From: Sporomusaceae bacterium
GTDB lineage: Bacteria; Bacillota; Negativicutes; Acidaminococcales; JAJUGR01
Direction of reading: 5' to 3'
NCBI GenBank assembly: GCA_029265905.1
Contig: JAJUGR010000018.1
Span: 1 to 47,611 of the forward strand
Length of the DNA: 47,611 bases
The stretch's first letter is position 1. The number at the start of each line of letters is the position of its first letter. This document shows positions 1-32,645 of this stretch, piece by piece. Both the position numbers and the translations under genes were made by a program. Below the pieces are notes generated by a model. It made no database searches. It was not told the origin of the DNA and worked only from the letters and a program-made list of their open reading frames with translations.

Positions 1-140
1 CCTCGCATCGATCGGCTATGATGACATAGCTAAACGATACGAGGTACTGCACTCAAGTTATTGAACCGCCGTATACCGAACGGTACGTACGGTGGTGTGA
101 GAGGTCGGTTGCTCAACTAATGGGCAACCTCCTACTCGAT
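1..140 (+). mobile_element. Group II intron, 3' end (domains V and VI)
   Basis: The stretch 63-96 folds as a domain V-like hairpin: ACCGCCGT pairs with ACGGTGGT, capped by ACCGAACGGT. It is followed by GTGTGAGAGG and a second hairpin (about 103-133, GGTTGCTC against GGGCAACC) ending in CCTACTCGAT, the usual 3' terminus of bacterial group II introns with the branch-point A in domain VI. The 3' splice junction would be at about 140. The reverse transcriptase, if present, lies outside the window to the left. No exon gene is recognisable right after the junction. The call rests on sequence pattern and folding by eye. Confidence 0.65.
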
Positions 141-14932: not shown

Positions 14933-15322
14933 ATGAGCAAGCATTACCGTGTCGGGAAACGGGCATGGGTTTCAAGGAGCGTGCTGGAGGCGGCGCGGTC
15001 GTTTATCGAAAGGCTGCAGGACAAGTATCCCGCTGCCTTCCCGGAAAAACACAAAGTGCCCTTGAAGCTTGGCATCCGGCAAGACGTATTTAACCAGGCG
15101 AAGGAATGGAATGTGTCGGAAAAGGCGGCGGCCACCGCGCTCACCTTGTGGTGTTCTGATCCGGATTATTACAAGGCGGTGGCGGCCGGCGGCTTGCGCT
15201 ATGATTTGGACGGCAATCCGAGCGACGAAGTTACAGAAGAGCAACAGCAAACTGCTGAAACGGCCCTGCGGCAGGCGAGGGCAAAACGCTTTCGCCGGGA
15301 CGAAAAAAAGGCTGGCGGTTGA
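14933..15322 (+). CDS. ProQ/FinO-domain RNA chaperone
   Basis: 129 residues. ATG 14933 follows AAAGGCGGGGATG; an in-frame TTG further up is less likely. Residues 12-98 match the FinO/ProQ fold: FIERLQDKYPAAF, then PLKLGIRQDVF (ProQ has PLKIGIFQDL), then ALTLWCSDPDYYKAV, then GGLRYDLDGNPSDEV (ProQ has GATRVDLDGNP). A charged C-terminal helix follows. The family binds structured RNA 3' hairpins and promotes sRNA-target pairing. It is best known from Proteobacteria and is unusual in this lineage. The next transcription unit, 15484-15710, is a candidate structured RNA, which makes a functional pairing attractive but unproven. Confidence 0.88.
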   Translation: MSKHYRVGKRAWVSRSVLEAARSFIERLQDKYPAAFPEKHKVPLKLGIRQDVFNQAKEWNVSEKAAATALTLWCSDPDYYKAVAAGGLRYDLDGNPSDEVTEEQQQTAETALRQARAKRFRRDEKKAGG

Positions 15323-15448: not shown

Positions 15449-15477
15449 TTGCTTTTTTGTTGGGCGCATGATATATT
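15449..15477 (+). promoter_or_regulatory. Sigma-A-type promoter of the RNA gene
   Basis: TTGCTT and TATATT are separated by exactly 17 bases. Transcription would begin near 15484. There is no open frame or ribosome binding site downstream before the terminator at 15669. Confidence 0.7.
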
Positions 15478-15483
15478 TTAACT

Positions 15484-15710
15484 ACAGAGAAGTTGGTCGG
15501 AGATGTCGCCAGACATCAAAGCCCCCTGGGGAGCACCGACGGCTTCCCTGCAAAGAGCTATCACGAGGTCATATCTTTCTTGGGCGCCGGCCTAAGACGC
15601 TAGTGACGATAGCTCCACAGCCATAGCGTATGATTTAGAAAAACTGAATCATAAAGATTTGCGCTGGGTAACCCATAGAGGAGCGTTCCTCTATGGGTTA
15701 TTTATTTGTT
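15484..15710 (+). ncRNA. Structured non-coding RNA, family not recognised
   Basis: About 225 bases from a spaced promoter to a strong terminator, with no credible reading frame. Visible folding: a three-way element closed by GTCGG/CCGAC (15496-15540) with hairpins ATGTC-gcca-GACAT and CCCC-ct-GGGG. A second domain is closed by the 8-bp GAGCTATC/GATAGCTC (15555-15615). A third has CAGC/GCTG outside ATGATTTAG/CTGAATCAT (15618-15666). The 14-bp terminator stem follows. I compared it by eye with tmRNA, RNase P, SRP, 6S and the common riboswitches and found no match. It sits between the ProQ homologue and a convergent gene, so it is not a 5' leader. Confidence 0.65.
15669..15710 (+). terminator. 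Terminator of the RNA gene
   Basis: TAACCCATAGAGGA pairs perfectly over 14 bp with TCCTCTATGGGTTA around GCGT, followed by TTTATTTGTT. Confidence 0.9.
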
Positions 15711-15722
15711 GCGCAGGTGAAG

Positions 15723-15760
15723 CAAAAACAACCCCGGAATCTGCGGCGCAGACTCCGGGG
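15723..15760 (-). terminator. Terminator of the C_GCAxxG_C_C gene
   Basis: On the minus strand CCCCGGAGTCTGC pairs with GCAGATTCCGGGG around a 3-base loop, followed by TTGTTTTTGCT. Confidence 0.9.
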
Positions 15761-15775
15761 CTAAGGAATGCATTG

Positions 15776-32297: not shown

Positions 32298-32387
32298 GGA
32301 GAGATGTCCGAGTGGTTGAAGGAGCACGCCTGGAAAGCGTGTGTATTCGAAAGGGTACCGAGGGTTCGAATCCCTCTCTCTCCGCCA
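32298..32387 (+). tRNA. tRNA-Ser, anticodon GGA
   Basis: Class II tRNA with a long variable arm (TGTATTCGAAAGGGTACC). The acceptor GGAGAGA pairs with TCTCTCC. The anticodon stem CACGC/GCGTG with loop CTGGAAA gives anticodon GGA (codons UCC/UCU). The T arm is GAGGG TTCGAAT CCCTC. CCA is encoded. A small terminator-like hairpin and T-run follow at about 32397-32427. Confidence 0.95.
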
Positions 32388-32428
32388 GTTAAATATCCGC
32401 CGTCGCTTGAGCGGCTTTTTTGTTTTTT

Positions 32429-32562
32429 GTGTCGGATGACACCGGGGCCGCGGGTCTTGCGCAAGGAGACCTCATGAACCCCGTCAGGTCCGGAAGGAAG
32501 CAGCGGTAAGTGATCAGTCTTTTGTGCCGCGAGGGTGCCTGGGCCCTGGTGTGATCCGACAC
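32429..32562 (+). ncRNA. ffs: Signal recognition particle RNA (small bacterial 4.5S type)
   Basis: The invariant apical domain is present: GAACCCCGTCAGGTCCGGAA, then GGAAGCAGCGGTAAG. The molecule is closed by GTGTCGGATGACACCGGGGCC against GGCCCTGGTGTGATCCGACAC. It acts with Ffh in co-translational targeting. Its place between tRNA-Ser and dnaX is the conserved Firmicute arrangement. Confidence 0.95.
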
Positions 32563-32645
32563 AGGAAAGAGCATAGCCGTTAAACGCAGTCATCAGCTTA
32601 GATGCCTGCGTTTTTTTGTATAGCCCGGTGGCTGGAGGTGGGGAC

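Follow-up and report, generated by a model that had tools for sequence, protein, structure and literature searches.

The window, that is, the whole stretch of DNA that was analysed, comprises 47,611 nucleotides of contig JAJUGR010000018.1 from a Sporomusaceae bacterium of the class Negativicutes. It contains a putative RNA gene that lies 160 bases downstream of a proQ/finO-family gene and is followed by a convergent gene for a C_GCAxxG_C_C protein. The features of this region, all on the plus strand, are as follows.

14933-15322, plus strand: proQ/finO-family gene (PF04352, E = 2.9e-27), the upstream neighbour, judged to lie outside the RNA system
15449-15477, plus strand: putative promoter, -35 TTGCTT, 17-nt spacer, extended -10 TG-A-TATATT
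15484-15710, plus strand: RNA gene, based on the fold (z = -9.0) and on covariance-model homologues
15485-15549, plus strand: domain 1, in which P1 (15489-15500/15536-15546) encloses P2 (15502-15507/15512-15517) and P3 (about 15522-15531)
15555-15615, plus strand: domain 2, with P4 (15555-15562/15608-15615), P5 (15568-15571/15604-15607) and P6 (15579-15585/15590-15596)
15573-15578, plus strand: proposed PK1 5' strand, AUCUUU
15597-15602, plus strand: proposed PK2 5' strand, ACGCUA
15618-15666, plus strand: domain 3 in its short form, with P7 (15618-15621/15663-15666) and P8 (15630-15638/15644-15652)
15624-15629, plus strand: proposed PK2 3' strand, UAGCGU, pairing with 15597-15602 (same basis as the 5' strand)
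15653-15658, plus strand: proposed PK1 3' strand, AAAGAU, pairing with 15573-15578 (same basis as the 5' strand)
15669-15708, plus strand: intrinsic terminator, 14-bp stem, GCGU loop and U-rich tail

A cmscan search of 15484-15710 against Rfam 15 gave no hit that reached the gathering score, and relaxing the cutoff to E <= 10 yielded nothing beyond chance level, so that no Rfam family is significantly matched; the RNAs of loci L003 and L010-L013 likewise gave nothing. The best ribozyme match, to the hairpin ribozyme, reached 15.5 bits against a gathering score of 65 and was judged to be a chance match. Like the present RNA, 6S RNA (RF00013) is stand-alone, of similar length and present in the window genome. 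However, 6S RNA is a single long hairpin with a central bubble, a fold different from the three-domain RNA considered here, its model gave no match, and the only 6S RNA found in the window genome is a separate gene (G000:C10:28406). The impression, gained by eye in the first-pass annotation, that no standard housekeeping RNA is involved thus holds. A literature search, for which preprints and many journals were out of reach, found no description of this RNA; an earlier description elsewhere is possible.

Two other RNA matches were noted on the same contig. The catalytic domain of a group II intron (RF00029, 46.2 bits) is matched at window positions 64-140, at the very start of the contig, which was likely broken at an intron copy. 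At 32298-32593, a match to the large SRP RNA (RF01854, 32312-32593) starts inside a tRNA gene (32298-32384); tRNA and SRP RNA genes stand here in tandem, and the 5' part of the SRP RNA match was probably forced.

Relatives of the RNA were collected in several rounds. A DNA search of 41 genomes revealed a paralogue in the window genome itself (G000:C3:123790-124015, minus strand; 73% identity, E = 3e-27), whose promoter region, three domains and terminator correspond to those of the window copy. The covariance model R1, built from these two sequences, retrieved four convincing relatives from 300 Negativicutes genomes (E = 6e-10 to 2e-18). When model R2, built from five copies, was applied to 380 genomes, it brought in another G176 copy and one copy each in G307 and G308 (E = 4e-21 to 5e-22). 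Model R3, for which eight copies were used, again led to these nine places and seven genomes, with E-values (1e-18 to 1e-42) that are not independent because all nine sequences either belong to the training set or are near-identical to one of its members. The independent matches are those of R1, plus the three that R2 added. Altogether, nine copies were found in 7 of the 380 Negativicutes genomes (G000, G067, G069, G100, G176, G307 and G308), with G000, the window genome, and G176 having two copies each. G307 and G308 are Propionispira arboris and P. raffinosivorans, while G069 and G176 are the soil MAGs CTSoil_073 and CTSoil_079. No convincing copy was found in 62 other genomes of the same order as the window genome, and a phylum sample of 398 genomes contained no further genome with one; so far, the family is known from Negativicutes only. 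Class-wide scoring was confined to the 6-8 top candidates of each genome and may have passed over weak copies; deeper scoring of 150 candidates, in sets of 8 and 3 genomes, produced no convincing additions. Weak model matches at L014, L008 (in G030) and L052 (E = 0.035) were treated as chance, L014 being located within what, read by eye, we take to be a recQ-type helicase gene. A match in Saprospiraceae (L043) was set aside as well; it is a single spaced-pattern match, the number expected by chance.

The gene signals can be considered in the light of these copies. In the window, the putative promoter consists of TTGCTT at 15449-15454 and TATATT at 15472-15477, the latter preceded by the TG of an extended -10 element at 15469-15470. 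It is absent from the list returned by a strict sigma-70 consensus scan and taken alone is weak, an equal score being obtained in 123 of 1000 shuffles. The same layout (TTG-N3, a 17-nt spacer and TGRTATADT, 4-7 nt 5' of the RNA start) is kept in all eight full-length copies. We placed the 5' end of the RNA about 7 nt past the -10 element and its 3' end at the U-rich tail of the terminator. The terminator stem is perfect over 14 bp (UAACCCAUAGAGGA/UCCUCUAUGGGUUA, 15669-15700), and all copies have an equivalent long hairpin at this place. The predicted folding energy of 15484-15710 is -98.9 kcal/mol, compared with -63.0 +/- 4.0 for shuffled sequences; after removal of the terminator, the z-score is -5.5 for the window copy and ranges from -2.7 to -6.4 in seven copies. 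Thus, the promoter with 17-bp spacing, the three folded domains and the 14-bp terminator reported in the first-pass annotation are all borne out. Its description of about 225 bases without any reading frame has to be modified, as a 52-aa frame (15468-15626) does overlap the RNA gene. Yet this frame is not conserved: indels in the paralogue shift it, and the open reading frames differ copy by copy. Taken together with the covarying stems described below and the blank Rfam search, these signals argue for a stand-alone structured RNA gene, as originally proposed, which would be transcribed separately from its own promoter site to its own terminator. On the minus strand, a 16-bp terminator hairpin (15729-15763) directly faces the terminator of the RNA gene; this arrangement appears to insulate the RNA gene from the convergent C_GCAxxG_C_C gene and vice versa.

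To analyze the structure, we used an alignment of eight copies (A8), from which the variable apical insert of domain 3 was cut out; the helices of domain 3 were segmented by hand in these eight copies. In the proposed structure, 92.7% of cells hold standard pairs, and 28 of the 51 pairs are changed on both sides, although eight distinct sequences provide only a small number of independent events as a basis for the covariation. The covariation score amounts to 0.395, compared with 0.238 +/- 0.015 after shuffling (0 of 500 shuffles as good), and sliding the partners by 1-3 columns leaves pairing at only 31-43%. Every stem is supported. In domain 1, P1 is paired in 94.8% and P2 in 100% of cells, with changes on both sides present, and in domain 2 the values are 93.8-97.5%, P4, P5 and P6 each having such changes. 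The three-domain fold therefore has the covarying stems among relatives that had been suggested as a check, and would have been maintained by compensatory changes. Domain 3 occurs in two forms. In six copies (G100, G069, both of G176, G307 and G308), P8 is capped by a branched insert, whereas the short form is found in both window-genome copies and in the G067 copy, which is without domain 1 and without a recognisable promoter. Long-form copies (L010, L011, L030, L031, L034) have an extra hairpin at the apex of domain 3 that the short form is missing, and in several of them an apical helix of the type GUUAAG...AAAAAGCUUAAC is seen, again missing from the short form. G000 and G067 belong to different orders, and their common short form may reflect ancient paralogy or transfer.

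The same alignment points to pairing between domains 2 and 3. In PK1, the 5' strand of the domain 2 internal loop is matched with the 3' strand of the domain 3 internal loop, and in PK2 the 3' strand of the former is matched with the 5' strand of the latter. Other copies have variant pairs, namely CCUUU/AAAGG, ACUUU/AAAGU and UCCU/AGGA for PK1, and ACACUA/UAGUGU (L013, L030) and GCGCUG/CAGCGC (L034) for PK2. On A8, PK1 is paired in 80% of cells with both-side changes in 4 of 5 pairs, while PK2 is paired in 100% of cells across the eight copies with three pairs changed on both sides. PK1 has weak spots, being reduced to 2 bp in L034 and interrupted in L013. When partners were swapped among copies, the observed mean was matched in 6 of 20,000 trials for PK1 and 105 of 20,000 for PK2. 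Because the segments in this test were hand-chosen, we additionally scanned every possible 5-pair stretch of A8. Of these, 25 pass, PK1 ranking third by covariation and PK2 being fully paired everywhere; both pseudoknots are thus found without prior choice. These results support the presence of PK1 and PK2, which had gone unnoticed in the first-pass annotation and through which the two internal loops would pair strand for strand. In the window, P6, PK2, P8 and PK1 abut with zero unpaired bases (15578/15579, 15596/15597, 15629/15630, 15652/15653), and P5, PK1, P7 and PK2 meet via short linkers. The predicted core therefore consists of two four-way junctions (P5/P7/PK1/PK2 and P6/P8/PK1/PK2) joined by two helices of 5-6 bp.

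As the RNA is compact, pseudoknotted and not cis-regulatory, it might be argued that it is catalytic. The two pseudoknots and the junction that, in the window copy, is without unpaired bases between helices would suit a ribozyme, and a catalytic role has been suggested for raiA on similar grounds (PMC11751092). However, we saw no strictly conserved unpaired core, and the ribozymes in Rfam remain unmatched except for the chance match to the hairpin ribozyme, so that we regard this explanation as improbable.

The genomic surroundings speak about other possibilities. The preceding gene does encode a ProQ/FinO protein, as had been stated, and a protein of this family is rare within the class: among the 300 Negativicutes genomes searched, ProQ is present in five, the other carriers being scattered over families. 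FinO-domain proteins bind terminator hairpins and double-stranded RNA, and ProQ could still bind the RNA in the window genome, where the two genes are close. The further proposal, that the RNA and the chaperone form a dedicated module, fails on distribution. Six of the seven RNA-carrying genomes are without ProQ, the window genome alone having both, and the paralogue is located not beside proQ, but between a lysR gene and a transporter gene. With a co-occurrence of 1 in 7 and a rarity of 5 in 300, the link amounts to neighbourhood in one genome. As a conserved module, ProQ is already refuted; any dedicated partnership is highly improbable, and the neighbouring gene as an explanation of the RNA is hereby corrected.

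Nor do the remaining loci have a common context. Within 5 kb, no genes are common to the loci, except between the two Propionispira species and for one weak GntR match; the neighbours include an SNF2 helicase and an FMN reductase, an SBF transporter and a GNAT acetyltransferase, a GerAC protein and a permease, an ECF transporter, and a histidine kinase. This bears on the view of the RNA as a cis-acting leader, attenuator or 3' UTR element. A terminator at the end, as in attenuators, would fit such an element, and in one genus the terminator directly follows an ECF-transporter gene. A riboswitch or leader, on the other hand, should precede a co-directional gene of consistent kind. The next gene is instead convergent in the window, at the paralogue and at L015, elsewhere the downstream genes are unrelated and vary by locus, and each full-length copy has its own promoter site. 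The original statement that the RNA is not a riboswitch is therefore upheld, and a cis-acting role of any kind is most unlikely.

The patchy distribution and the two genomes with two copies each might alternatively suggest a mobile or selfish element or its remnant. We consider this very improbable, as no match was found in phage records or plasmids, viral contigs (searched with two exact patterns only) were blank, and the loci have no flanking DNA or genes in common. The history of individual sites also speaks for inheritance and loss. Between the RNAs of the two Propionispira species, 293 of 294 positions agree, compared with 67% identity over the upstream 200 bases and 97.8% for the next gene, the identity jumping at the ACAG start. 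Of eight genomes in the genus of G067, only one keeps a recognisable RNA. In G067 itself, domains 2 and 3 and the terminator remain, following an ECF-transporter gene (Pfam). At the same site in its relatives, 3' fragments comprising P8, PK1 or P7 remnants and the terminator are found in L056-L058, and scarcely anything beyond the terminator in L055 and L059. Across loci L054-L059, the RNA gene is thus seen in different stages of decay at a single orthologous site, where the terminator may be retained for the upstream ECF-transporter gene. Decayed copies at the same site imply that, at least in this genus, the family was inherited and lost rather than recently inserted, and they point to loss as the source of the patchy distribution.

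The main rival to a structural role is a base-pairing, trans-acting sRNA that works with Hfq or without a chaperone and is structured mainly for stability. Its own promoter, strong terminator, varied neighbours, patchiness and loss would all fit. However, the conserved positions lie in helices and in mutually pairing loops, no long conserved unpaired seed was seen in the alignment, and the structure of sRNAs is usually less tightly conserved than is the case here. We therefore consider an sRNA of this kind unlikely, albeit worth keeping in view.

The closest functional analogue appears to be raiA/ModT (RF03072), a stand-alone, compact RNA of about 210 nt with two pseudoknots, found in Bacillota, whose role is not settled (PMC11706538, PMC11751092). 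The present RNA is likewise stand-alone and compact and has two predicted pseudoknots. Yet sequence and topology differ. The raiA covariance model, run by cmscan over the window and related loci, gave no match. In raiA, there is a closing P1 stem, and a single pk-loop serves both pk-1 and pk-2 (PMC11751092), whereas here three successive domains follow one another and two whole internal loops would pair together. Furthermore, raiA occurs in over 2,500 species and the present family in 7 of 380 genomes. OLE, ROOL and GOLLD are ornate bacterial RNAs with compact folds that form oligomers (PMC12286853); they are much larger than the present RNA, and none is matched here in Rfam. In topology only, the core also resembles the paranemic crossover design R1128 of CASP15, a designed RNA described as being without natural homologs (PMC10168427), in that helices joined by four-way junctions are connected through inter-helix pairing in stretches of about half a turn. 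In the present case, the pairing would occur within one natural RNA.

Overall, sequence comparison indicates that the locus is a real bacterial RNA gene, absent from Rfam and with few scattered relatives, in which two hairpins are predicted to interlock via their internal loops. The reading that we favour, with a probability of roughly 0.6, is that of a stand-alone, non-coding structural RNA, new to Rfam, which acts in trans and whose locked core serves as a scaffold. Since pairing accounts for the conserved positions, the RNA most likely serves as a rigid scaffold, either for a protein or for an oligomer, a view that draws on analogy and on the apparent lack of a conserved unpaired seed. The RNA would probably work with a protein partner, which the scaffold would hold, or else it would oligomerise, in the manner of raiA/ModT and OLE rather than by antisense pairing. 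More tentatively, and with somewhat less than even confidence, the model suggests a natural intramolecular lock of paranemic type in a new RNA family, which might swap between molecules to give oligomers and so act as a self-assembling scaffold or switch.

Few stand-alone structured RNAs combine covariation support with absence from Rfam, and the predicted core, with internal loops pairing strand for strand, would be an unusual natural RNA fold. Its Propionispira hosts can be cultured, and the family includes paralogues, a naturally truncated form and, within one genus, a series of decaying copies. Studied stand-alone RNAs (6S, OLE, raiA) proved to touch global physiology. In the present family, the repeated loss of the gene suggests that its function would be dispensable and lineage-specific.
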